Assembly (NCBI GenBank): GCA_945883795.1
Contig: CAMCYC010000011.1
Location: forward strand, 1-52,377
Direction of reading: 5' to 3'
Length of the DNA: 52,377 nucleotides
Source of the DNA: Sulfurimonas crateris
GTDB lineage: Bacteria > Campylobacterota > Campylobacteria > Campylobacterales > Sulfurimonadaceae
Within the stretch, counting starts at the first letter, position 1; every line of letters begins with the position of its first letter. Under the pieces are notes generated by a model that was not told where the DNA came from, ran no database searches, and worked only from the letters and a program-made list of their open reading frames with translations. The translations under genes were made by a program, and so were the position numbers. Below, one piece after another: positions 30,652-44,375 of this stretch.

Positions 30652-31419
30652 ATGAAATTTTACAAAGCTTACGCAAAAGTAAATATTTTTCTTAAAATAA
30701 CTGGTGTAAGAGGGGAATATCACGAAATAATTTCTCGATTTATGAGAGTAAATACTCTTTATGATGAACTTTCTTTTGTTCCAAAAACAGAAAATGGATT
30801 TGAAATTATTGGAGATTTCTCTTGTACAGTGGAGCAAAATACAATATACAAAGCTTATATTGCTTTAAAAAATGTAACAAACTCAGATGCGTTAGTAACA
30901 CTTATGCAAACCCATGCTATAAAAGTGCAAAAATCGATTCCTACTTTTGCAGGACTTGGTGGTGGTAGTAGTGATGCTGCAACTTATCTTTTGATGTGTA
31001 ATGAAATTTTACAATTGGGTTTGAGTGTAGAAGAATTAGCTCAAATTGGAGTCAAAGTTGGTGCGGATGTTCCTTTTTTTGTTTACGGATATGAGAGTGC
31101 TAATGTGAGTGGAATAGGGGAAATTGTAGAACCGTTTGAGGAAGAGATTTTAGATTTTGAAGTATTTACACCAGATATCCAAATAAGCACTCCAAAAGTC
31201 TATCAAATATATAGGAAAAACTTTTATGCTCCAATTGGAGGAGTTCAAACACAAAAACTAAAAGAAACAGCTTCTTTGGAAATTTTAAAAAATTTCAATG
31301 CAAAAGAGCTAAACGACCTTTTTCAACCTGCTTTGCAAGAATATAAAGAGTTAGCAAAATACTATAATCCTGAGTGGTATTTTAGTGGAAGTGGAAGTAG
31401 TTTTTTTAAAACAACCTGA
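30652..31419 (+). CDS. ispE: 4-diphosphocytidyl-2-C-methyl-D-erythritol kinase
   Basis: IspE phosphorylates CDP-methylerythritol in the MEP route to isoprenoids. 255 residues, GHMP kinase: N-terminal AYAKVNIFLKITGVR, the ATP-binding GLGGGSSDAA (101-110), GADVPFFVYG, and the C-terminal WYFSGSGSSFF. It follows csrA by four bases. In Campylobacter and Helicobacter smpB comes next, as I recall; here a 12.3-kb chemosensory operon intervenes. Confidence 0.95.
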   Translation: MKFYKAYAKVNIFLKITGVRGEYHEIISRFMRVNTLYDELSFVPKTENGFEIIGDFSCTVEQNTIYKAYIALKNVTNSDALVTLMQTHAIKVQKSIPTFAGLGGGSSDAATYLLMCNEILQLGLSVEELAQIGVKVGADVPFFVYGYESANVSGIGEIVEPFEEEILDFEVFTPDIQISTPKVYQIYRKNFYAPIGGVQTQKLKETASLEILKNFNAKELNDLFQPALQEYKELAKYYNPEWYFSGSGSSFFKTT

Positions 31420-31477: not shown

Positions 31478-31483
31478 TATAAT
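31478..31483 (+). promoter_or_regulatory. -10 element of the chemosensory operon
   Basis: TTCGC-TATAAT, 55 bases before the cheY ATG and 59 bases after ispE, in an A/T-rich tract without a clear -35. It is the only good promoter candidate seen ahead of the twelve-gene cluster, and its G-C step before the hexamer resembles the one upstream of the DUF721-like gene. Confidence 0.5.
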
Positions 31484-31537
31484 AATTCCCTATTCAAATA
31501 TAAATTTACATAATGTTATTTTTTAAAAGGGAGTTCA

Positions 31538-31900
31538 ATGGCTAAGGTATTAGTGGCTGATGATGCAGGTTTGATTAGGATGGTTGCAAAAAAGGCGATT
31601 GAAGAAGCAGGGCATGAGGCTATTGTAGTGGAAAACGGTGCCGAAGGTTTAGAAGCACTTAAGCACCATAAGTTTGCTTTAATTTTCAGTGATGTCAATA
31701 TGCCAGTGATGGGTGGACTTGAGATGGTCGAAGCAATTAAGCAAATAGCGGAGTTTAAATATATTCCTATAGTTATGTTGACAACTGAAAGTTCAGATGA
31801 ATTAAAAAGCAAAGGTAAAGCATTAGGAGTGAAAGCATGGATGCTTAAACCTTTTGATAAAGACAAGTTTTTAATGGTTATTCAAAAGTTAATAGAGTAG
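31538..31900 (+). CDS. cheY: Chemotaxis response regulator CheY
   Basis: A 120-residue single receiver domain: acidic pocket DD (8-9), phospho-acceptor Asp52 in FSDVNMP, Thr82/Thr83 in MLTTES and Lys104 in MLKPFD, all of the residues required for activation. AGGGAG lies seven bases before the ATG. It is the first gene of the operon and the likely main phosphate acceptor from the CheA encoded two genes on. Whether it addresses the flagellar motor or another output is not determined by the sequence. Confidence 0.93.
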   Translation: MAKVLVADDAGLIRMVAKKAIEEAGHEAIVVENGAEGLEALKHHKFALIFSDVNMPVMGGLEMVEAIKQIAEFKYIPIVMLTTESSDELKSKGKALGVKAWMLKPFDKDKFLMVIQKLIE

Positions 31901-31904
31901 TCTC

Positions 31905-32177
31905 ATGATATTTGAAACTGATTCCCTTAAAATTGAGCAGGTAGAAGAAGTTAAAAGTCAGTTGTTGGCTGCTTTAGAGAATGAAGCACCAATGATTACT
32001 CTGGACCTTTTATATGTAAATAAAGTCGACCTCTGTATCATACAACTTTTTTTAGCTTTACAAAAAAGTACACAAAAGAAAAATATCCAATTAACTTTAA
32101 AGAACTGTTCAGAAAGTTTTATAAATACTCTTTCCTTAAGTGGTTGTTCAGATTTATTAAAGTGTTCCCATGAGTGA
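31905..32177 (+). CDS. STAS-domain protein
   Basis: 90 residues, a single STAS (anti-sigma-factor-antagonist-like) fold: ITLDLLYVNKVDLCIIQLFLALQKS followed by IQLTLKNCSESFINTLSLSGCSDLL. In SpoIIAA-type proteins the segment after the Asp carries the phosphorylated Ser; here that site reads VDLCII, with no Ser or Thr, so classic phosphoregulation is unlikely. STAS proteins occur in some non-motility chemosensory clusters, as in Vibrio cholerae cluster III from memory. Overlaps cheA by eight bases. Confidence 0.82.
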   Translation: MIFETDSLKIEQVEEVKSQLLAALENEAPMITLDLLYVNKVDLCIIQLFLALQKSTQKKNIQLTLKNCSESFINTLSLSGCSDLLKCSHE

Positions 32178-34170
32178 AGAACTAGACTATTTTCACGAAG
32201 ATGCCAAAGAGCAACTTCAAATGATGGAAAGTGCTTTACTTGATGCGATGGATAAAGGTTCAAATACTGAGTATATAGGAACTATTTTTCGTGCTATGCA
32301 TACTATTAAAGGTGTTGCTGGCATGTTTAGTTTTGATGCGATTATCTCTTTTACGCATATTGCAGAAAATTTGATGGACAGTGTTCGCAATGGTAAAATT
32401 GTCTTAGGTGAAAATTTATTAATGCTTCTTTTGGAGTGTAAAGACCATGTCAATGAGTTGGTAAATTGTGCTGTAGAATCAACTGACTTACCTCCACAAA
32501 CACTTGAAAAAGATAAATTGCTCAAATCAACAATTAATGCCTATTTAAATAATTCTCAGGCTCATTTGACACCAAAAGAATCTCAAAATATAGAAACTCC
32601 TAATACAAATTTATGGCATATCTCCCTTGCTTTAAAAGATTCTTTTTTTGATAGTGGTATGGATTTAATTTCTATTATAGCTTTTTTGAAACGATTAGGA
32701 ACTTTGCACAAAGTGCATCCTTTATTGGAAAAACTTCCAACTTTAGAAACTATTGACCCATATAAACCTTATCTTAGCTTTGAAATAGAGTTTGAGGGGG
32801 ATGTAACAAAAGAGACTTTGGTTGAGGTATTTGAATTTGTTGAGGATGATATAGAACTAGAAGTTTTTTCTGTTAAAGAGTTTTTAAATACTCAAGAAGA
32901 AAAGAGTATAGAAGAAGTTCAACAAATTGAAGTAAGTGTAGCACAGCCAGTAGAATCCCCAAAAATAGAACCTCTAAAACAAGAGTTACCAGATAAAAAA
33001 GTAACTCCTGTTTCTCAATTTTTGCGTGTTGATTCGAGTAAAATTGATATTCTTATTGATACAATTAGTGAGATGGTGATTGCTAATGCTAAAATCAACC
33101 GTTATGTTGAAGAAAATAGTGCAGTAGAACTTGAAGAAATTTCGATAGAACTTAGCACACTTCTTGAAGGGTTGCGTAATAATGTGATGAATATTCGCAT
33201 GGTTCCTGTAGGTGAATCATTTGAAAAATTTCGTAGAGTTGTGAATGATGTAGCGTATAGACTGGGTAAAAAAATAAACTTCGTCATAAAGGGTGGAGAA
33301 ACAGAACTTGATAAAACAGTGATAGAAAAAATTGCTGACCCGCTTTTACATATGTTGCGAAACTCTGTTGACCATGGGATAGAATTACCTCAAAAAAGGG
33401 TTGAACAAGGTAAATCTGAATATGGAAATGTAGAACTTCGTGCTTATCCAGAATCTGGTTCTATTGTGATTGAGATTGAAGATGATGGTAAAGGGTTGGG
33501 ACTTGATGCTATTTTGGCAAAAGCAAAAGCAAAAGGGATAATCACTCCAACACAACAACTCTCAGATGCAGAAGCGTATAAACTGATTTTTGAACCAGGT
33601 TTTTCAACAGCTGAAGTCGTCTCAGATATCTCAGGGCGTGGTGTTGGGATGGATGTGGTTCGTAAAAATATAGAAGCACTCAAAGGTGATGTAGAGTTAC
33701 AAAGCTATGTTGGAAAAGGGAGTTGTTTTACAATCCGTTTGCCTTTGACTTTGGCAATTATTGATGGCTTTTTATTTCAGGTTGGAAAAACAAATTATAT
33801 TATTCCACTTGACATGGTCTCGGAAGTGATAGAATATACACAACAATATCATGTAAGTATGAAAGACTCAAAAGTATTTAATCTTCGTGGTACTTTGCTC
33901 CCATTTTTGGATGTTCGAAGTTATTATCAAGAAATGAGTTGTCAAGTGTGTGAGAGACAAAATATTATTGTTGTAAAGTATGGTCGTCATAAAATGGGAC
34001 TTTTAGTGGATGAGCTTTTGGGAGAATATCAAACCGTGATTAAGCCTTTGGGTAAACTTTTCGTGAATGCACCTGCACTTTATGGAGCTTCAATTTTAGG
34101 AAGTGGAGAAATCGCCTTGATATTTGATATTCCAGCTTTATTTGAAATGGTAAATATAATAAGGGAGTAA
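32170..34170 (+). CDS. cheA: Chemotaxis histidine kinase CheA (without receiver domain)
   Basis: 666 residues. P1 HPt domain (about 1-105) with phospho-acceptor His44 in MHTIKGVAG; a P2-like or linker region (about 150-280, rich in Glu and Val); P3 dimerisation helices (about 285-350, RVDSSKIDILIDTISEMVIANAKI); HATPase domain with N-box around 393-403 (HMLRNSVDHG), G box near 438 (EIEDDGKG) and GRGVGMDVV near 489; and a C-terminal CheW-like P5 domain (about 530-660). The protein ends after P5 (MVNIIRE): it lacks the C-terminal receiver that the CheA of Campylobacter and Helicobacter motility clusters carries. It overlaps the STAS gene by eight bases. Confidence 0.96.
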   Translation: MSEELDYFHEDAKEQLQMMESALLDAMDKGSNTEYIGTIFRAMHTIKGVAGMFSFDAIISFTHIAENLMDSVRNGKIVLGENLLMLLLECKDHVNELVNCAVESTDLPPQTLEKDKLLKSTINAYLNNSQAHLTPKESQNIETPNTNLWHISLALKDSFFDSGMDLISIIAFLKRLGTLHKVHPLLEKLPTLETIDPYKPYLSFEIEFEGDVTKETLVEVFEFVEDDIELEVFSVKEFLNTQEEKSIEEVQQIEVSVAQPVESPKIEPLKQELPDKKVTPVSQFLRVDSSKIDILIDTISEMVIANAKINRYVEENSAVELEEISIELSTLLEGLRNNVMNIRMVPVGESFEKFRRVVNDVAYRLGKKINFVIKGGETELDKTVIEKIADPLLHMLRNSVDHGIELPQKRVEQGKSEYGNVELRAYPESGSIVIEIEDDGKGLGLDAILAKAKAKGIITPTQQLSDAEAYKLIFEPGFSTAEVVSDISGRGVGMDVVRKNIEALKGDVELQSYVGKGSCFTIRLPLTLAIIDGFLFQVGKTNYIIPLDMVSEVIEYTQQYHVSMKDSKVFNLRGTLLPFLDVRSYYQEMSCQVCERQNIIVVKYGRHKMGLLVDELLGEYQTVIKPLGKLFVNAPALYGASILGSGEIALIFDIPALFEMVNIIRE

Positions 34171-34172
34171 AT

Positions 34173-35054
34173 ATGAGTATGAATGAAAAAGAGGTTGTGT
34201 TTGAAGAGCATGAATTAATTGTGAGCATGACTGATGTAAAGGGTAATATTCTGTATGCAAATGATATTTTTTGTAAAATAGCAGGCTATTCCAGAGATGA
34301 ATTACTTGGACAGCCTCACAATATGGTTCGCCATCCAGATATGCCTAGAGTTGTATTTAAACTATTATGGGAAACAGTACTCTCTGGTAAATTCCTTTCA
34401 GCCTTTGTAAAAAATAAAACAAAAGATGGAAATTATTATTGGGTTAAAGCATATGTCGCACCTATTATAGAAAATGGAAAAATTGTAAGTATCACTTCTT
34501 ACCGCCGTCCAGTCAACGATTTTGTAAAAAGAGAAGTTTCCAAAACATATAAAGTTTTGCTTGATTATGAAAGAACACATTCGATGAGTGAAACAGTTGA
34601 TTTTTTTTCATCATTTTTAAAAGAGCGAAATTTAACTTATCCACAATTTATTGATAGACTAGCACAAGACCGCTCTATTAGTAGTCCTGCAGCTTTGAAT
34701 ATTGATGTGGATGGATATTACATTGACCATATTATTTTTAAAACAGCAATTACTCGTGGTATATCTTTGGGTAAAAAAGATATTAAGGTAACTGAACCAT
34801 GTTGTTGTAATCTTGGTAAAAAATTAAAAACTCTTGAGGGGATGTCGTTTACTACGCACCTTTCATGGTCTAAAGTGCATCATTATCACAATCATGTACA
34901 TGGTTTGATGAAAGAGTATGTTAATAGAGCGCATGGTGGTGCATTAAAAGATGAATTAGATGGACTTTTGTCAAATGTTCAAACTGATACGATAAAATTG
35001 TTTGATATGCTTAATGATGTAATTGATAATTATGTAGAAGAAAAGGGTCTGTAA
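34173..35054 (+). CDS. PAS-CZB sensor protein
   Basis: 293 residues, soluble. N-terminal PAS domain (about 8-120) of the Aer/CetB type: [50 protein letters not shown]. Then a helical linker (about 120-180) and a C-terminal domain whose His/Cys pattern fits the chemoreceptor zinc-binding (CZB) fold: DH at 185-186, Cys212 in CNLG (after Cys210 and Cys211), and His residues at 236-243 (VHHYHNHVH). CZB domains bind zinc and sense hypochlorite or zinc; PAS of this type binds FAD. It has no methyl-accepting domain and is followed, sharing one base, by a soluble receptor, so the two probably form a split Aer-like sensor, as CetB and CetA do. Confidence 0.78.
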
Positions 35055-36883
35055 TGTTTGAAATTTTGATGAATAAAAAATATTTGAAAGATATATCTTT
35101 CGCAGAAAAAGCACTAGATACATTAATAAATGGTGATTTTGAGAAAAATTTTGTCACCCCAAATGAAGAGTTTACCCTCTTATTTTCAAAGATGAACACT
35201 CTGCGTATGAAAATAAAAAATATCAATGAAGATGTTACTTCTATGAATGAATCAGTTTTAAAGGGTACTTTGACAAATCGTATAGATATGGTAAAGCATA
35301 AAGGAACATTTGGTTTACTGAGTAATGGCGTGAATTATAATGTTGATTTAATTGCATGTTTATTGAGTGATATCTCTAGTGTTATGGATAGAGTCTCAGG
35401 AGGTGATTTTTCTGCAAGAGTGACGACTACCTATTATGGTGAATTTGATAAACTAAAAAATGCAGTAAATCATGTAATTGAGAGTCTCCATGGGCTTGGA
35501 GTGGATTCAAAACTTGCTACAACTGCCATGCGTCAGGGGAATTTGACAGTTCGACTTGATTCTTCAAAATATGAAGGAGAATATGCTCTTATATGTGCGG
35601 GTCTTAATGATACTATGGATGCTGTTGTGGGTGTTTTACAAAATGCAACTGATAATTTAGTAAAACTAAGTCAAGGTAATTTTAGTGCTAAAATTGAAAC
35701 CGCTTATGTTGGGGATTATGCTCTTATAGCAGAAGGGGTAAATAATCTCGCCTTCATGATGGAAAATTCTATTGATGAACTTTCAAGAGTTATGCAAGAG
35801 CTTAGTAAGGGAAAACTCTCAGAGCGTATAAATATAGAACTTCCCGGAGATATGCAAGCAATAAAACAATCAACCAATAGTTTTATTGAGATACTTAACG
35901 CCATGATTTTTGAGATTCGTGACACACTGCGTGAGATGCAAGGTGGAAATTTAACTAAAAAAATTACTCTCGATATGCCAGGTGAACTTGTAGAAATCAA
36001 AAACTCTGTGAACTCTTTTATAGAATCTCTTTCTGAAATTATTACCCAGATTGTGATGAGTGCCAATGAAATTAGTACAGCTTCAAGTGAAGTAAGTAGC
36101 TCTTCTCATTCTATCTCTTCTGGTGCAGAGACTCAAGCTTCTTCTATTGAAGAAACAACAAGTTCTATAGAAGAGATGAGTGGCTCTGTTTCAGAAACAG
36201 CAGAGAATGCAAAACTTACAAATAGTCTTGCTTCAGATGCTTCTACTATGGCTCAAAAAGGGGGAGAAGCGGTAAGCAAAACTGTACTTGCTATGCATGA
36301 TATCTCTACTAGAATTAAAGTTATTGAAGATATTGTCTATCAAACAAATCTTTTAGCACTCAATGCTGCAATTGAAGCGGCTCGTGCTGGTGAACATGGA
36401 AAAGGATTTGCAGTAGTTGCCGCTGAGGTGAGAAAACTTGCAAAACGCTCCCAAATTGCAGCACAAGAGATAAGTAAAATAACAAAAGATAGTGTATTTA
36501 TCTCTGAAGAAGCGGGAAATCTTATCTCGGCAACCCTTCCAAAGATTGAAGAAACAGCAAAACTTGTTAGGGATATTACAGCAGCTGCAAGTGAACAAGC
36601 AATAGGAGTTGAGCAAATTTCTATTGCCATGAATCAGCTCGACCAAGTAACACAAGAAAATGCTTCATCTTCACAACAACTCGCAACGATTGCAGAGGAG
36701 CTTAATGGTCAAGCTTCATCATTAACAGATATGATGAAATTTTTTAAACTCAATACGCAAGGGATTAACCCTTCTAAAAAAGAGATTCCAAATAATAGTA
36801 CTCGAAAATCAAAAGATTATACACTTGGAAATAAAAGTAAAATAGAAGAGAGTCTCGATTTACAAAATTTTGAACGCTTTTAG
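35054..36883 (+). CDS. Soluble methyl-accepting chemotaxis protein with seven HAMP-like units
   Basis: 609 residues with no transmembrane segment and no ligand-binding domain. Seven HAMP-like units repeat every 44-46 residues, marked by a Gly in a G-[DNTK]-[LF]-[ST] step at residues 27, 71, 117, 162, 208, 253 and 298. The signalling domain runs from about 335 to 565, with the conserved tip [23 protein letters not shown] (split at 425-447) and [18 protein letters not shown], flanked by Gln/Glu-rich methylation helices. A 35-residue polar tail ends in NFERF, resembling the NWETF CheR/CheB-docking pentapeptide. It overlaps the PAS-CZB gene by one base and precedes cheW by eight. Confidence 0.93.
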
Positions 36884-36891
36884 GAGAGGAG

Positions 36892-37404
36892 ATGTTTTCG
36901 CAAATATTCGTGGATGATGAAGATGATATGGCAATTAAAGAGGGTCCGCAATATTTGCTCTTTTATTTACAATCGAATCTTTTTGCACTCAGAGGTGAGT
37001 TAATCTCTGAGATTGTTGAATTGCCAGATATCACCAAAGTTCCATGGATGCAACCTTGCGTAAAAGGTATTTGTAATATTCGTGGAGCTATTGTTGGTGT
37101 TTTGGATATCTCTGCACGCCTAATGCAAGGCGAATTTGTTCAAACAGAGCAAACTTCATTGATAATAGTTTCAACTTTGTATGATGGACTTATACAAAAA
37201 ATTGGACTTATTATTGATAAAGTGTATGAGGTTGAAGTATTTGAAGCGCATGAATTGCAGTTAGTTCCAAATTTTGGTTTACCAGTGAAGTCATATTATA
37301 TTGAAGCGATGTTACCTTATAAAGGAGATTTTATTCCTCTTCTTTCTTTAGATAAGCTAGCTGACCTTGAATTTTTGAGTCAAAGAGAGAATCCACATGG
37401 TTGA
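36892..37404 (+). CDS. cheW: Chemotaxis coupling protein CheW
   Basis: 170 residues. The CheW fold begins after a short acidic lead (VDDEDD) with QYLLFYLQSNLFALRG, then the usual VPWMQPCVKGICNIRGAIVGVLDISARL, QTSLIIVSTLYDGLIQKIGLIIDKVYEV and PYKGDFIPLLSLDKL. CheW links receptor tips to CheA in the array. AGGAGAGG lies three to nine bases before the ATG. The end overlaps cheV by eight bases. Confidence 0.94.
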   Translation: MFSQIFVDDEDDMAIKEGPQYLLFYLQSNLFALRGELISEIVELPDITKVPWMQPCVKGICNIRGAIVGVLDISARLMQGEFVQTEQTSLIIVSTLYDGLIQKIGLIIDKVYEVEVFEAHELQLVPNFGLPVKSYYIEAMLPYKGDFIPLLSLDKLADLEFLSQRENPHG

Positions 37405-38329
37405 GAATGTAACATCTATAAATGATATTGAAGCGGATGAAGATGAGATAGACCTTATTAAGCTTGTCAGTAGTAACGCAGATATAGCAAACCAATATGT
37501 CATTTTTGAAGGTTCAAATGGGGAGTATTACGGTATTAATGTTGCCAAAGTTGAAGAATTGTTTATCTTTGAAAAAAGTAATATGGTTGTCAATAATAAT
37601 GTTGATGACCTCATTATTGGTATTGCCCAAATCCGTTCTCACATGACCCCTTTAATTTATTTTGATGAGTGGTTTGGAAATAAGAGTTTAGAAGATGAAT
37701 TGTATGAACTCCTTATCTTATGTTATTTTTCTGATGAGTATTTGGGTTTAATTGTCAAACAAGTATTTGATATTGTGAGTATTAATCCTGAGCAAATGTA
37801 TGCGAATGCAAAACAAAATGAACTTACAACTTTTATAGCAAAAATAAGTGCAGGAAAGAAAGAGTTTTTATGTACTATTTTTGATACAGATAGACTTTTG
37901 TATGATTTATATGGTGAAGAGAAAATGAGTGAAGAGAAAGGTTTTGTACCAATCAAAAGTGAAAAAATGGTTTTATTTGCAGATGATAGTAAATTAGTAC
38001 GCAAAATGGCGCATGAAGCTTTTGAAAAACTAGGGATTAAATTTAAAATTTTTCAAGATGGTCAAGAGTTATTAGAAGCATTAGAAGAGATAGCTGTTGG
38101 AGATATAGGTCTATTTTTACTTGATGTTGAGATGCCTAGAAAAAGTGGAATTGATGTCATAGAGACACTTTCTAAACAATCAAAATATTCAAAGATACCT
38201 ATTGTTGTTCATACAAATATGGCAAATGCTTCTATTCGCCACTTTTTGGATATAAAAAATGTATCACAGACTATAGGCAAAGTAGATTTTAAAACAATAG
38301 AAACTTCAATTAGGAATTATATACTATGA
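37397..38329 (+). CDS. cheV: CheV (CheW-receiver fusion)
   Basis: 310 residues: CheW-like domain (about 30-180, QYVIFEGSNGEYYGINVAKVEELFIF, IIGIAQIRSHMTPLIYFDEWFG) followed by a receiver domain (about 195-310, VLFADDSKLVRKM, acceptor Asp in LFLLDVEMPRKSG, Thr in VVHTNM, Lys in IGKVDF). CheV proteins act as couplers whose phosphorylation tunes adaptation; several are known in Helicobacter and Campylobacter. It overlaps cheW upstream by eight bases and cheR downstream by four. Confidence 0.93.
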   Translation: MVENVTSINDIEADEDEIDLIKLVSSNADIANQYVIFEGSNGEYYGINVAKVEELFIFEKSNMVVNNNVDDLIIGIAQIRSHMTPLIYFDEWFGNKSLEDELYELLILCYFSDEYLGLIVKQVFDIVSINPEQMYANAKQNELTTFIAKISAGKKEFLCTIFDTDRLLYDLYGEEKMSEEKGFVPIKSEKMVLFADDSKLVRKMAHEAFEKLGIKFKIFQDGQELLEALEEIAVGDIGLFLLDVEMPRKSGIDVIETLSKQSKYSKIPIVVHTNMANASIRHFLDIKNVSQTIGKVDFKTIETSIRNYIL

Positions 38330-39135
38330 GTAATCTTGTAGAAATAATTTTACAAGATAATGAATTTGCACTTATTCAAAAGTTAATTTTTAACACAGTT
38401 GGAATTACTCTTGATGATAGTAAAAAAAGCTTAGTGAAAAATAGACTTTTAAAGCGTTTAAATTTTTATGGTCTCAAGAAATTTAGTGATTATTTACGGA
38501 TTGTTCAATACAATCGTGATGAAATTGCAGAAATGGTCAATCAAATCACAACAAATGAAACTTATTTTTTTCGGGAACAATCCCATTTTGATTTTTTAGT
38601 CAAAACAATAGAATCCTTAAAATCTAACAGCATGATTCGAGTATGGAGTGCCGCTGCATCTCTTGGCGCAGAGGCATATTCTATTAGCATGGTGTTAGAT
38701 AGTATTCTTGGTGCTTCAAAATACCAAGTTTTGGGAACTGATATCAATACACAAGTTTTAGAAATTGCAAAAAAAGGGGTGTATCCTTTGCCATGGGTGG
38801 ATAAAATCCCACTTTCTTATAAACAGGCTTATTGTTTAAAAGGCAAAAATCAGTATGAAAAGCAATTTTTAATAACGCCTGAACTTCAAAAAAATGTTCG
38901 TTTCTCACAAGCAAATTTACTTGAAGTTCAAACAGGGATAGGAAAATTTGATATTATATTTTTACGCAATGTACTTATCTATTTTAATGATGAAATTAAA
39001 GCTTTGGTTATTGAAAACATTCTTAGAAATCTTCATGAAGGGGGATATTTGATAATTTCACTCACCGAGAATTTACGCAATATAAACAATCCACATTTAA
39101 AACAAATAGATACTTCTATTTATAAAAAGGTATAA
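38326..39135 (+). CDS. cheR: Chemotaxis protein methyltransferase CheR
   Basis: CheR methylates receptor glutamates using S-adenosylmethionine. 269 residues: N-terminal helical domain with GITLDDSKKSLVKNRLLKRL, QITTNETYFFREQSHFDFL, SAM-binding IRVWSAAASLGAEAYSISMVL, VLGTDINTQVLEIAKKGVYP, and FDIIFLRNVLIYFN. It has a beta-subdomain-sized insertion between ITPELQKNVRF and the core, where pentapeptide-dependent CheR proteins bind NWETF. The receptor two genes upstream ends with NFERF. It overlaps cheV by four bases. Confidence 0.95.
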   Translation: MSNLVEIILQDNEFALIQKLIFNTVGITLDDSKKSLVKNRLLKRLNFYGLKKFSDYLRIVQYNRDEIAEMVNQITTNETYFFREQSHFDFLVKTIESLKSNSMIRVWSAAASLGAEAYSISMVLDSILGASKYQVLGTDINTQVLEIAKKGVYPLPWVDKIPLSYKQAYCLKGKNQYEKQFLITPELQKNVRFSQANLLEVQTGIGKFDIIFLRNVLIYFNDEIKALVIENILRNLHEGGYLIISLTENLRNINNPHLKQIDTSIYKKV

Positions 39136-39137
39136 AA

Positions 39138-40034
39138 ATGCTAGGACATAATTATAAAAATTTTCTTTCTCTCTTAGCAAAAGCATGCCATTTATTGGTC
39201 TATGATGATGGAAAAATTTTAAAGAATTATAAAGATATTTTAAATACTTTTGCATTATATCGTTATAATAATATCAATGATGTATCAGTATCTCATGTAT
39301 CAAATATGTTTATTTCACAAAAAGTTGATATGGTTTTAATTTATTCCACTGATTACCAAAAAGTGCTTGAATTGTGTGAAGAGATACTTTTACATGATAA
39401 AAATATGGTAATAACAGTTATACTTGAAGAACATAATGATATAAGTTTAAAAATTGCTAATCTTGTAGATACAATAGTATATACTCCTTTTAGTATAGAA
39501 ATTTTAAATAAAAAAATAAGTATTGCTTTGAGTGCAAAATTTATGATTTATGAGATGACACATACAATAAACACGCATAAAAAGTTTTTGGATGATACAG
39601 GGATAGAACCATTTTTGAATGAATATCAAGAGGCAATTAAAATTCTTTTTGAGACCTTGTCTAGTTTAATAGAAAGGCTTAAAAGTGGTGAACTCAGTCA
39701 TGAACTTTTTTGTGAAATAGCGGATGAAATAGAGTTGATAGGGACAATTTTTAATTATCATCATTATACTGCACGAGTTAGTTTGATATTTAATCAAATG
39801 GCAGGATTTTTACGAATGTATAGTTTTGATGATATTGATATTGTAACACTTGAGGGGTTTGATTATCTTGTAGAAATTTTGCAAGATATTTGTAATTATA
39901 TAAACGATTTTTTTATCAAACGAATTTTTTCTGATGTGTATGTTTTTGAACACTCTTTACTTGATTCTATAAATTTTATGATAAATCGTCTCAATAATAA
40001 TAAAGATATTGAAAGTAAATTGGAGTATTTTTAG
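39138..40034 (+). CDS. Degenerate receiver plus helical domain protein
   Basis: 298 residues. The N-terminal half (about 10-130) reads as a receiver fold that has lost its chemistry: the acceptor strand is DMVLIYSTDY without the usual Asp, the switch strand is VITVILEEHN without Thr/Ser, and the Lys of the final loop is replaced (VYTPF instead of xxKPF). The C-terminal half (about 145-298) is all helical, with YLVEILQDICNYINDFFIKRIFSDVYVFEHS. That region aligns by eye with the C-terminal end of the protein encoded at 41078-42181. Abuts cheB. No family recognised; probably a scaffold or an inhibitor in the array. Confidence 0.72.
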   Translation: MLGHNYKNFLSLLAKACHLLVYDDGKILKNYKDILNTFALYRYNNINDVSVSHVSNMFISQKVDMVLIYSTDYQKVLELCEEILLHDKNMVITVILEEHNDISLKIANLVDTIVYTPFSIEILNKKISIALSAKFMIYEMTHTINTHKKFLDDTGIEPFLNEYQEAIKILFETLSSLIERLKSGELSHELFCEIADEIELIGTIFNYHHYTARVSLIFNQMAGFLRMYSFDDIDIVTLEGFDYLVEILQDICNYINDFFIKRIFSDVYVFEHSLLDSINFMINRLNNNKDIESKLEYF

Positions 40035-41066
40035 ATGATTAAAGTGATGGTAATTGATGATTCTATGGCAGTGAGGCGTGGTTTTGCAAAACTCATTAGT
40101 AAAATGGTGGGAGTGGAATTGATTGCAGAAGCGAGTAATCCCATAGATGCATTTGAAGAGTTTAAAAAAGTGGGACTTCCTGATTTATTTATATTAGATA
40201 TTGAGATGCCAAAAATGGATGGAATCACTTTTTTAAGAAAAATCTCTGAACAAAAGCCTATACCTGTGATTATATGTTCTACTCTTGTTGCTGAGGGTTC
40301 TGATGCCGCAATTGATGCTTTACGCTATGGTGCTGTTGATATTATTGAAAAACCAAAAGTAAATCTTGAGAGTTTCTTTTCAGATTATCAAGAGGAACTC
40401 TCGGAGAAAATAAAATCTGCAATTGGGGCGCATGTAAAAGTTATAAAAACTATTAATCAGCCACTTATTACAAATGTAAAAGATATAAACTCTCTTTCGC
40501 CAAGCAAAAAAATTGTAGCGATTGGTTCTTCTACAGGTGGTGTTCAAGCTTTGGAAACAATTGTGTTAGGACTTAAACCTCATCATGCAGGGATTGTAGT
40601 CACGCAACATATGCCTCAAGGTTTTACCGCTTCATTTGCAAAAAGATTAAATCAAATTGCACCTTATTGTTATGTAAAAGAGGCTCAAAATGATGATATT
40701 ATTAACGATGGACAAATGCTTATAGCTCCAGGTGGGATTCACATGGAAGTCTATAAGATAGGAAATGTCTACAAAGTGCACTTACGAGATTTTCCTAAAG
40801 TGAATTCTCATAAACCAAGCGTAAGTGTTTTATTCAAATCGGTAGCAAAAACTGCTCTTGCTAATGCTCAGGGCTATATATTAACTGGCATGGGAAGTGA
40901 TGGAGCTACAGGTTTACAAATGATGCATGCAGCTGGTGCAAAAACTTTTGGAGAGAGTGCAAAATCAGCAGTTGTTTATGGCATGCCACGAGTTGCGTAT
41001 GAGATGGGTGCAGTGGATGAGGAACTTGAAATTGGACAAATTGCACAACATATAAATAAAATATAA
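40035..41066 (+). CDS. cheB: Chemotaxis methylesterase/glutamine deamidase CheB
   Basis: 343 residues: receiver domain (about 1-125, acceptor Asp55 in FILDIEMPKMDG) joined to the esterase domain (about 155-340) with the catalytic triad Ser166 in IGSSTGG, His192 in TQHMPQGF and Asp287 in TGMGSDGA. CheB removes methyl groups when phosphorylated by CheA, opposing CheR. The ATG follows the previous stop codon with no gap. No CheD or CheC gene is in the window. Confidence 0.96.
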   Translation: MIKVMVIDDSMAVRRGFAKLISKMVGVELIAEASNPIDAFEEFKKVGLPDLFILDIEMPKMDGITFLRKISEQKPIPVIICSTLVAEGSDAAIDALRYGAVDIIEKPKVNLESFFSDYQEELSEKIKSAIGAHVKVIKTINQPLITNVKDINSLSPSKKIVAIGSSTGGVQALETIVLGLKPHHAGIVVTQHMPQGFTASFAKRLNQIAPYCYVKEAQNDDIINDGQMLIAPGGIHMEVYKIGNVYKVHLRDFPKVNSHKPSVSVLFKSVAKTALANAQGYILTGMGSDGATGLQMMHAAGAKTFGESAKSAVVYGMPRVAYEMGAVDEELEIGQIAQHINKI

Positions 41067-41077
41067 GGATAAAGTAT

Positions 41078-42181
41078 ATGGAAAGTAATATTTTACAGAT
41101 GATTAAAGAGGACGCTAAGAATGTAAATATACTTATTGCAGAAGATGATTTAGTTATGCAAGGGTTATATAAGCGACTTTTTAAAGATATGTTCGCTAAC
41201 TTCACTATGGTCAATGATGGTGCTCAAGCTTATGAATATTTTTGTGATGAAAAAAATCCTTCTATTGACCTTATTATCACAGACAATTATATGCCAAACA
41301 TGGGCGGAATAGAGTTGGTTGAAAAGATTCGTGAGATAAATTTCAATGTGCGTATTATTGTCATGACAAGTGAACATGATTTAACAGCGATTAAAAAATA
41401 TACTCTAAGTGGTGTTGATGCGATTTTGCCAAAGCCATACGATGAAGAGTTGACCATGAGAGTGCTTCAAAGAACACTCCATTATATTGGTGAAAATAAA
41501 TTTTTGGAGCATTATATTGGTCAATTAGAGTTAATGGCTAAAGAAAATGTTGTGCGAAAAGGGGAAGAGTTAAAAAATCGTACTCTTGAAGAGCGAAGTG
41601 TCAAAATGAAAAAAGCTGAGAGTGTACAAAAAATATCATCAGAATCTCCAATAGATAAAAATACTCTTATTCAAAAATACAATATTCGTCAAAGTATTAA
41701 AGCGATGGAAGATGTGAATGTTGAAGATTTTGATATTCGTGGAAAAGAACGGATGGATGATTTTCGGGAAAAACTTTCAAGTTATGAATTATTGCTTTAT
41801 TCTATAGAAAATAACGATGTAGCCTCTTTACGATTGGTTTTAGAGATTGTACTTGAAGGGGTAAAAGAACTTATAGATGCACTTGATATGATTGGAATAT
41901 TCCCAGTTGCTTCTCATGCAGCTACTAATCTTATCATTTTTATAGAAAATTTAGGGGATGAAGCCTTAAAAGACAAAGATAAACAAGAACTATTTATAGA
42001 TATTTTGGCAACTATGCTTGGAGATTTTGATAAATGGATAGATTTGGTTTTTATCTCAAAATCAACAGATAATATTCATTATTTTGATGCTTCTTTTGCA
42101 AATACTTGTTTAGAATTAGAGATGGTTTTTAAAATAAATAAACCAAATACTCAAGATGAAGATAATTTAGAATTTTTTTAA
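41078..42181 (+). CDS. Receiver domain protein with C-terminal helical domain
   Basis: 367 residues: intact receiver (about 14-135, acceptor Asp69 in IITDNYMP, Thr97 in VMTSEH, Lys119 in LPKPYD), a charged coiled linker (about 150-235), and a helical C-terminal domain (about 240-360: LLLYSIENNDVASLRLVLEIVLEGVKEL, ELFIDILATMLGDFDKWIDLVFISKS, DASF). The C-terminal domain resembles that of the pseudo-receiver protein on the other side of cheB. No DNA-binding, GGDEF or EAL domain, so this is a protein-interaction output. Function unknown. Confidence 0.8.
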   Translation: MESNILQMIKEDAKNVNILIAEDDLVMQGLYKRLFKDMFANFTMVNDGAQAYEYFCDEKNPSIDLIITDNYMPNMGGIELVEKIREINFNVRIIVMTSEHDLTAIKKYTLSGVDAILPKPYDEELTMRVLQRTLHYIGENKFLEHYIGQLELMAKENVVRKGEELKNRTLEERSVKMKKAESVQKISSESPIDKNTLIQKYNIRQSIKAMEDVNVEDFDIRGKERMDDFREKLSSYELLLYSIENNDVASLRLVLEIVLEGVKELIDALDMIGIFPVASHAATNLIIFIENLGDEALKDKDKQELFIDILATMLGDFDKWIDLVFISKSTDNIHYFDASFANTCLELEMVFKINKPNTQDEDNLEFF

Positions 42182-42196
42182 TAGGTGGTTAGACCT

Positions 42197-43807
42197 TTGA
42201 TAAACAAAGATGATTTGGAATATGAACTTTATGAGATATTTAAAGAACAATTTATAAACAACATGGTTCAAATTGAGAACAATATTCTCGAATTGGAAAA
42301 TAGTGAACATGATAAAAAAGCAATCAATAATTTATTTAGAATATTTCATACTCTCAAAGCAAACAGTCAATATTTTCATTTTGAAAGTATGTCAATTGTT
42401 GCAGATAAAACTGAAAAAGTACTTGCTTCACTTAGAGAAGGGAGTGCATTTAGTGATATTAGCGTTATTAAGTGGTTAATAAAAGTTCAAGAACAATGTT
42501 TTATCTGGTCTCATGAGATGGAAAATGATGCAACAGAGTTTTCTCAACCAACTCCATCATTATTAAATGAGATAGAGATTAAGGATTCTCATACAAATGC
42601 ATTATCTCTTCTAAAACAACTTTCTGTTTTGTATTTTGACATCAATCAAAAAAGGTCTCAAAAATTACTCTCAGCATTAGAAAAAAATTTTTTAAAAGTA
42701 AAAGAGGTGCATACTCTGGATGATTTTGAACAAAAATTAATTCTTGAACAACCAAATATATGTATCATAAATATTGGTAAAGACACGATTAAAGCATCAA
42801 AATTATCTCAACAGCATGTTCCAAACTCTGCAATAATTGTTGTTTTTGATAAACTTGACCATAGCACTTATCTTAAGCTTGGAGTGCATGGGATATATCA
42901 TACAATTTTGAATCCAATTATGGGCGATGAACTCAAACGAGTACTTTTATCTGTTATAGATTCACATTTTACTTCGAGACAGTTTATTATTACAAACCAG
43001 AAAATAAAAGATTTTATAGAAACATTACAACCCTTGTCTGTATCAATTTTACAAATACAACGAATTTGTGATGATGAAGAAGCTTCTATAAAAGAGCTTA
43101 TTAAAGCGGTGAAACTTGACCCAGTTATTTCAGGAATGATACTCAAAACTGCCAAAAATCCAATATATGGTTTGGAAGAGATTAGTACAATAGACCAAGC
43201 TGTAAGTATTTTTGGAAAAACAAGAGTGAAAGCGATTAGCTTAAGTCAAATGATTGATGCTTTTGGTAGAATGGATTTGAGTCCATATAATATAACGGAA
43301 TCAATTTTCTCAAATGTAGCAGCTTTACGACTTATGCTGATGATAAAATGGTATTCTAAAGTATCTATCTCTTCGTTAGCAATTTTATCAACTACTGCAA
43401 TATTAGGGAATATAGGGCAACTTCTTATTGCACGAGAGATTAATGTATTGAAGAAAAAAACTGTTTTTTTACAAAATATACAAGATAACACTATACAAAT
43501 TGCAGAAGAAAAATGTATGCGTACAACGACAGCGTCTGTTAGCAGTGATATTTTAAGCTATTGGCAGTTAGAGATGGATATTGTCGATTCAGTCCGTTTT
43601 AGTGATAATCCAGAAGATGGACCAGAACAGATTTACTCTCTTTGTCTTGCTAATCATGTGGTTTATAGATTAGTACAACTTGACGGAAAAGTACTCAAAA
43701 AAGTTCCAAAAAATATCGAAAAATTGCTCCAAAAAAATAAACTTCGTGTGGAGCCTTTACAAAAAGCGTTAGATGCCATTAACAATATTACTCAAGAGAG
43801 AAATTAA
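42197..43807 (+). CDS. HPt - degenerate receiver - HDOD fusion protein
   Basis: 536 residues from TTG 42197, which has AGGTGG eight bases upstream; a GTG at 42185 is in frame but lacks a ribosome binding site. N-terminal HPt domain (about 5-115) with the phospho-acceptor His51 in FHTLKANSQYFHF; a middle part (about 135-260) with receiver-like pattern (FLKVKEVHTLDDFEQKL, ICIINIGKDTI, AIIVVFDKLDHS) but no acceptor Asp or loop Lys; and a C-terminal HDOD domain (about 275-480: SILQIQRICDDEEASIKELIKAVKLDPVISGMIL, STIDQAVSIFGKTRVKAISLS, ILGNIGQLLI). HDOD domains are related to HD phosphohydrolases but lack the metal site. This is the last gene of the operon. Confidence 0.78.
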   Translation: MINKDDLEYELYEIFKEQFINNMVQIENNILELENSEHDKKAINNLFRIFHTLKANSQYFHFESMSIVADKTEKVLASLREGSAFSDISVIKWLIKVQEQCFIWSHEMENDATEFSQPTPSLLNEIEIKDSHTNALSLLKQLSVLYFDINQKRSQKLLSALEKNFLKVKEVHTLDDFEQKLILEQPNICIINIGKDTIKASKLSQQHVPNSAIIVVFDKLDHSTYLKLGVHGIYHTILNPIMGDELKRVLLSVIDSHFTSRQFIITNQKIKDFIETLQPLSVSILQIQRICDDEEASIKELIKAVKLDPVISGMILKTAKNPIYGLEEISTIDQAVSIFGKTRVKAISLSQMIDAFGRMDLSPYNITESIFSNVAALRLMLMIKWYSKVSISSLAILSTTAILGNIGQLLIAREINVLKKKTVFLQNIQDNTIQIAEEKCMRTTTASVSSDILSYWQLEMDIVDSVRFSDNPEDGPEQIYSLCLANHVVYRLVQLDGKVLKKVPKNIEKLLQKNKLRVEPLQKALDAINNITQERN

Positions 43808-43852: not shown

Positions 43853-44308
43853 ATGGGCGAAACCATCGCAAAAAATAACAAAGCATATTTTGATTATTCT
43901 TTAGAGGAAAAATTTGAAGCTGGATTGGTTCTTGTGGGAAGCGAAGTGAAAGGGATTCGTGCCAAACGGGTAAATCTTAAAGATAGTTTTATCCGTTTTG
44001 TCAGAAATGAAGCTTTTTTATTTAATGCCCATATTGGCAGACTTGAAACGACACACCACTTTTATTCTCATGAAGAAAGAGGTGCCAGAAAATTGCTTTT
44101 ACATAAAAGACAGTTACAAACCATGCATAAAGCAGTCACACGAGATGGCTATACTATTGTTCCATTACAACTTTATTTTAATGATAGAAATATTATAAAG
44201 ATTCAGATTGCAATCGCAAAAGGAAAACAGCTTCATGATAAACGACAAGATATGAAAGAAAAAGACATGAAACGAGATGCTCAAAGAGCTCAGAAGGATT
44301 ATTCATGA
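43853..44308 (+). CDS. smpB: SsrA-binding protein SmpB
   Basis: SmpB carries tmRNA to stalled ribosomes. 151 residues: [43 protein letters not shown] is the family's OB-fold core, then [29 protein letters not shown] and the basic C-terminal tail [27 protein letters not shown]. Length is normal. Own promoter predicted. tmRNA itself is not in the window. The stop TGA overlaps the ATG of a 20-codon frame (44305-44367). Confidence 0.97.
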
Positions 44309-44367
44309 AATATACAGTTTTCCTTTTAGTTATTATACAAAACCAAAATAAAAATATTTTAAAGTAA
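44305..44367 (+). CDS. Possible 20-residue hydrophobic peptide overlapping the smpB stop
   Basis: ATG AAA ... TAA, 21 codons, overlapping the smpB stop as ATGA and preceded by AAGGA eight bases upstream. The peptide [20 protein letters not shown] has a short hydrophobic stretch. It ends nine bases before the TPR gene. Coupled small peptides of this kind exist, but in A/T-rich DNA a chance frame of this length is common; no homology evidence. Confidence 0.2.
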
Positions 44368-44375
44368 GGTTTCTT

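Follow-up and report, generated by a model that had tools for sequence, protein, structure and literature searches.

The closest described relatives of the locus reported here are the F8 chemosensory systems (for instance cluster II of Pseudomonas syringae and the 34H clusters of Geobacter), the F7 clusters (e.g. Vibrio cholerae cluster III), the CetA/CetB pair of Campylobacter jejuni and the PpfA-positioned cytoplasmic cluster of Rhodobacter sphaeroides. Receptors of the 34H class are assigned to F8 (PMC9321776; PMC11253619) and have a C-terminal x[FY]xx[FY] sequence that is paired with a CheR group of its own (PMC2577667); F8/34H is a class already described for Campylobacterota (PMC9321776). 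A stretch of 52,377 nucleotides from Sulfurimonas crateris (assembly GCA_945883795.1, contig CAMCYC010000011.1, forward strand; hereafter the window) was analysed. Between ispE and smpB it contains twelve same-strand open reading frames (ORFs; positions 31538-43807, + strand), designated g1 to g12 in order, which probably constitute a complete, soluble F8-type (34H) system, accessory to the F3 system of the same genome. The genome is a draft (G000: 2.41 Mb, 126 contigs, the window being contig C11), and all statements about it were based on profile and pattern searches of its contigs.

The receptor g5 (35054-36883) is a 34H chemoreceptor, one heptad shorter than Tsr per arm: both arms of its signalling domain lack 7 residues relative to Tsr, and the same was found in six orthologues. 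Measured in the same way, the receptors of two other CheA clusters of the genome differed from Tsr by 0/0 (36H, cluster C13) and +14/+14 residues (40H, cluster C20). The C-terminal pentapeptide of g5 is NFERF, and nearly all orthologues end in x-F-x-x-[FY] (one ends in L). The CheR of the block (g8, 38326-39135, Pfam) has a beta-subdomain loop of pentapeptide-binding length, which aligned without gaps to Salmonella CheR, whereas P. aeruginosa CheR1 lacks four residues there. A 34H receptor within the cluster, an x[FY]xx[FY] pentapeptide and a pentapeptide-type CheR are the marks of F8, and are also the points of likeness to the P. syringae and Geobacter systems.

The CheA (g3, 32170-34170) comprises Hpt, H-kinase_dim, HATPase_c and CheW domains by Pfam and has no receiver domain, as had been noted in the original prediction. 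In a tree of Campylobacterota CheAs only, the CheAs of the block and its relatives formed a clade of 10 (support 100/100), next to F7 (86/82). From receptor class, tail and this Campylobacterota-only tree, and not from reference CheA class models, the block was filed as an F8-type (34H) system. Placement of CheA and receptor by class, as originally proposed, gave a separate CheA clade and a 34H receptor, but within a class that was already described. The signatures of the neighbouring classes are absent from the block, which has neither the cheVAW operon and receiver-bearing CheA of F3, nor the 36H receptor and CheD gene of F7, nor the double receptor (DosM) and triple CheW of F9.

The block had been predicted to be a second array, a count that did not hold, as the genome has five CheA clusters including that of the window. 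Cluster C7 (cheV, a cheA with receiver, cheW) bears the F3 signature; by published criteria the F3 system steers the flagella, and the block would be accessory to it. Cluster C13 is F7-like (36H membrane receptor and a CheD-like gene), C1 is a complete F9 cluster (triple CheW and double receptor DosM) and C20 is Wsp/ACF-like (40H receptor, CheA-receiver, two CheWs, CheR and CheB). The response regulator of C20 carries PAS and histidine-kinase domains. With the F7 clusters (V. cholerae cluster III; C13) the block shares a CheY of the V. cholerae CheY4 kind and the neighbouring CheA branch; F7 clusters have 36H receptors and CheD, with a membrane receptor in C13, whereas the receptor of the block is 34H and soluble and no CheD gene accompanies it. 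The block differs from the described F8 systems in other respects: its receptor is soluble and poly-HAMP, it has a separate PAS/CZB-like adaptor, a CheV and no CheD, and it includes a pseudo-receiver/receiver pair with a shared tail domain (g9 and g11) and an HPt-HDOD protein (g12). Overall, the block represents a known class in variant form, and its novelty lies in the shared domain and tail.

On the input side, g5 contains at least four HAMP units (HAMP_2, 1.1e-41, 4 stretches) and an MCPsignal domain (5.6e-36). Its maximum Kyte-Doolittle value is 1.32, whereas a membrane MCP from this genome reaches 2.61, and g5 has no transmembrane segment, in agreement with the cytoplasmic receptor that had been predicted. 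The adjacent gene g4 (34173-35054) encodes a soluble PAS protein (PAS_3, 5.9e-17) with an 11-residue PAS motif, by which we take the domain to be of the Aer type. The second domain of g4 (CZB, 7.6e-4) retains the 3His/1Cys zinc core (DH, C, HxxVH) in the window and in most orthologues of the alignment, with an altered core in L058. The CZB domain is defined by such a 3His/1Cys core (PMC8262984); the domain of g4 is named CZB-like only, because its score is below the cut-off and the usual Trp is absent.

A separate PAS protein beside a HAMP receptor is the arrangement of CetB and CetA, and CetAB-like PAS/MCP pairs are used for energy taxis (PMC2628428). The likeness to the C. jejuni pair lies in an Aer-type PAS and HAMP/MCP signalling on separate proteins encoded by neighbouring genes. 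CetA, a membrane-anchored protein, operates together with the F3 motor system, whereas g5 is soluble, poly-HAMP and 34H and has its own CheA; relative to CetB, g4 carries the added CZB-like domain. The signal is probably the redox or zinc state inside the cell, which g4 would read, acting on g5 as CetB acts on CetA.

On the output side, the CheY of the block (g1, 31538-31900; Response_reg 6e-22) is a phosphorylatable receiver whose best match in the PDB was V. cholerae CheY4, a protein that does not bind FliM (PMC3774744). Motor-binding CheYs are recognised by W58, K91, K119 and the T84-Y106 pair (E. coli numbering; PMC9321776). At the equivalents of 58, 91, 119 and 106, g1 has V, S, V and W, unlike a motor CheY, while the F3 CheY of the same genome (encoded next to prmA) has the equivalents of W58, Y106 and K119; FliM is also present in the genome. 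Because g1 lacks the FliM-contact residues, the output of the block is probably non-motor, in line with the original prediction of a non-motor or specialised array.

The terminal gene g12 (42185-43807, GTG start) encodes an HPt domain (Hpt, 3.4e-5), a degenerate, receiver-like linker that was recognised by eye only, and an HDOD domain (5.1e-19). H55 of the HPt domain is conserved in the orthologue of genome G397. In a Sulfuricurvum block, a separate HDOD gene lies directly upstream of cheY.

Alternatively, the block could be a second steering input to the flagellar motor: a cytoplasmic energy-taxis array of which CheY, CheV or g11 would act on the motor directly or by draining phosphate. FliM and an F3 cluster are at hand in the genome, the PAS/MCP arrangement is one used in energy taxis, and taxis can require a cytoplasmic cluster (PMC3964821). 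In several bacteria motility is altered by HDOD proteins or their mutation, C. jejuni Cj0248 being one example (PMC11004494), and therefore an indirect effect on swimming is possible. We nevertheless regard a steering input as doubtful, since g1 lacks the FliM-binding residues (PMC9321776) that the genome's own F3 CheY possesses, the block has one receptor only and few genomes carry it.

The new element of the block is found in g9 and g11. The protein g9 (39138-40034, 298 aa) had no match in Pfam or NCBIfam and was the sole exception among the block genes, 11 of the 12 having a Pfam match. It was identified by fold search, in which a receiver fold was kept (Z 15) and the phosphorylation site was absent, and by its profile match to the g11 family (hhalign E 3.6e-12); g9 and g11 are full-length homologues. 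The protein g11 (41078-42181) has a true receiver (Response_reg 2.4e-19). Both end in a shared helical domain of about 160 aa (hereafter the C-domain) followed by a terminal tail, L-E-Y-F in g9 and L-E-F-F in g11, and the pattern L-E-[FY]-F is nearly invariant in the orthologues. The unusual output proteins that the original prediction could not match are thus partly accounted for, as paralogues with a pseudo-receiver and a receiver, while their C-domain has no convincing match among Pfam, NCBIfam or PDB families.

For the C-domain, no Pfam family matched more than one of 20 members, the NCBIfam matches of g11 fell on the receiver (g9 had none) and PDB profiles gave weak, partial helical matches only. 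The 20 members were combined in a profile (A4), which matched 58 of 397 Campylobacterota genomes in 18 of 68 genera, with up to nine matches per genome; the domain is frequently encoded next to F7, F8 or F9 genes. In the genome of the window, related C-domains occur in the F7 (C13) and F9 (C1) clusters and on contigs C25 and C16. At loci picked by profile A4, a terminal [LIVMF][ED][FLYIM]F was present in 33 of 37 domain proteins and in none of 337 other ORFs. CheA, CheR, CheW or CheD genes were found within 6 kb of 16 of these 37 proteins, and none in that reach of the other 21. The same E-F-F tail, without the C-domain, ends the GGDEF cyclase of two sister operons (L096 and L098).

The tail resembles a short docking motif in its behaviour and is a candidate for one. 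The receptor of F7 systems ends in DDL[RK]EF, which resembles the tail and suggests CheR or CheB as the putative partner; this idea is weakened because the tail also occurs beside F9 clusters. Such pentapeptides are not known from the 44H receptors of F9 systems. The tail as a CheR pentapeptide was accordingly kept as one option only. Two other candidates were discarded: a CheZ-like phosphatase, proposed from a conserved Asp, was rejected as the family has no conserved Gln at +4, and matches of g9 and g11 to PorX and RssB in the fold search were set aside because they covered the receiver half and a helical linker only.

More tentatively, and with the balance still somewhat against it, Campylobacterota systems of three classes or more (F7, F8 and F9) may share a docking module. 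It would consist of the helical domain of about 160 residues and the acidic [LMIF]-E-[FL]-F tail, borne by true and pseudo-receivers, with a bare tail on a diguanylate cyclase, and would bring output proteins to one hub, which may be the adaptation enzymes, CheY or the array, as NWETF recruits CheR and CheB. If this were true, one array could drive several outputs through the common tail hub.

The remaining genes of the block encode a STAS-domain protein (g2, 31905-32177; Pfam STAS 1.3e-8) without the usual phospho-Ser in the ortholog alignment, CheW (g6, 36892-37404), CheV (CheW plus receiver; g7, 37397-38329) and CheB (receiver plus methylesterase; g10, 40035-41066), the last three identified with Pfam. 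Both adaptation enzymes are thus encoded in the block, and the twelve tightly spaced genes were as predicted, with a largest internal gap of 11 bp and four overlapping junctions. The single -10 element of that prediction stood as a sequence: TATAAT is present upstream of the operon (31478-31483, + strand), and a similar A/T element was aligned in two to three relatives. Its role as the one promoter of the whole block is plausible; consensus promoter matches in the region numbered 83, against 61 in shuffles (sd 8), a modest excess.

The block is no chance grouping of genes: almost all of its ten-gene core recurs in colinear form in seven other genomes. At least seven Campylobacterota genomes besides that of the window keep, at differing positions and with small changes, the core order cheY-STAS-cheA-PAS-MCP-cheW-cheV-cheR-g9-cheB. 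The marker g9 was found in 8 of 397 Campylobacterota genomes, so the block is not the sole motility cluster of most relatives; the genome of the window itself also has the F3 cluster and FliM. When named genomes were scanned with a profile, 14 loci were recovered, each assigned to Campylobacterota from its name or because it was identical to a searched genome: Sulfurimonas (including Sulfurimonas sp. STC_122), Sulfuricurvum, Sulfurospirillum, Arcobacter and other Campylobacterales. A collection-wide genome scan with g9 alone as query gave no match, whereas the profile scan succeeded.

The 3' end of the operon is variable: the window has g11 and HPt-HDOD, whereas hybrid kinases or different receiver proteins are encoded in other blocks. 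In G401 the HPt-HDOD gene (L052:7239-8836) is split into two overlapping frames, through decay or sequencing error, and g11 was not called there. Within the core, a GGDEF diguanylate cyclase gene lies between g9 and cheB in two loci (L096:916-1653, Pfam-tested, and L098:2606-3340), and a ParA/MinD-like ATPase gene between cheR and g9 in four (L056:10882-11697, L095:9168-9992, L097:4399-5226 and L098:881-1711). These ATPases are reminiscent of PpfA and would fit cytoplasmic clusters; the R. sphaeroides cluster is alike in its soluble receptor and in this ParA-like gene of several sister operons. It differs from the block of the window in class and outputs, and the window has no ParA gene.

The insertion site was assessed in relatives. 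The gap between ispE (30652-31419; GHMP_kinases_N 8.8e-15) and smpB (43853-44308; SmpB 1e-53) was at most 150 bp in 26 of 34 same-genus genomes; in the other eight, four gaps measured 224-618 bp, three held other large inserts (G005, G021 and G401) and one was rearranged. No che genes lay between ispE and smpB in any of the 34; outside the genus but within the order, 11 of 21 genomes had the two genes adjacent. Adjacency is thus common, as originally supposed, and among the genomes examined the block interrupts this tight neighbourhood in the genome of the window only. Inserts unrelated to the block were located in the gap of three genomes other than that of the window, at L059:5550-10332, L060:12074-14226 and L110:4886-7808, and the gap may be a site that tolerates insertion. 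In the same neighbourhood, only 67 bp (44309-44375) separate smpB from a TPR gene in the window. In most relatives this interval is occupied by a gene of some 870 bp, which in L015 looked M23-peptidase-like on inspection by eye; the window lacks it at this position. One relative has a divergent second SmpB-like gene (38% identity; G030:C37:4210-4623).

Orthologous blocks of G401, G397, G016 and a CAITKP genome are at other sites, with largely different flanks. Flanks were shared by one pair (L054/L092), a divergent upstream gene by L055, L056 and L099; other resemblances were few and scattered, being weak or limited to single genes. The simplest reading of the position is that a module inherited within a Sulfurimonas-like lineage, and changing place there, was relocated to ispE-smpB. 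A recent horizontal gain of a foreign island would accord with the patchy spread (8 of 397 genomes), the differing sites among species and the more divergent version of the same-genus genome G175 (CheA 49% identical, SmpB 84%). Such a gain is nonetheless unlikely, because the GC content of the block (0.322) equals that of the window (0.323) and its divergence is that of housekeeping genes: identity to the nearest orthologous block, in G401, is 78% for CheA and 85% for CheB, against 84% for pcrA, 77% for truB, 72% for ispE and 85% for smpB, and the range towards G401 and G397 is 74-78% for CheA and 85% for CheB. Moreover, no mobility genes were seen, and no direct repeats longer than 8 bp were found at the block junctions. 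An assembly artefact of the 126-contig draft, although no relative has the block at ispE-smpB, is very improbable, as both junctions are well within the 52-kb contig, neither ispE nor smpB is damaged, GC shows no break and other genomes carry large inserts in the same gap.

Relocation of a lineage-native, F8-type system is the reading retained, together with the following mechanism, in which we have reasonable confidence. The receptor g5, once acted upon by g4, would form an array with CheW, CheV and the receiver-less CheA, and adaptation would be carried out by the block's own CheB and its own CheR, docked on the NFERF tail of g5. Phosphate from CheA would pass to receivers unlike the motor-binding CheY (those of g1, g7, g10 and g11). 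The receiver protein g11 and its pseudo-receiver paralogue g9 would be tethered to a common partner, or compete for it, by means of the C-domain and tail, and g12 would act as the terminal regulator.

Several points weigh against this reading. The F8 assignment does not come from the official class models; the CZB match of g4 reached 20.2 bits for a cut-off of 29.4, and its CNLGKKL, without Trp, departs from the CX(L/F)GXW(Y/L) motif; g12 misses the Hpt cut-off by 0.2 bits. HDOD is not universal in the blocks, g12 being frame-split in G401 and absent in G016. The non-motor output is inferred from residues, and the phosphate-sink role proposed for V. cholerae CheY4 could still affect swimming.

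Little is understood about chemosensory arrays that act outside the flagellar pathway, and few F8 systems have a known output. The block of S. crateris brings inputs, core, adaptation and candidate outputs together in one 12-kb unit, and its shared domain and tail, which had no match in the domain libraries searched, provide a testable candidate for the means by which outputs are tied to chemosensory arrays across the phylum.

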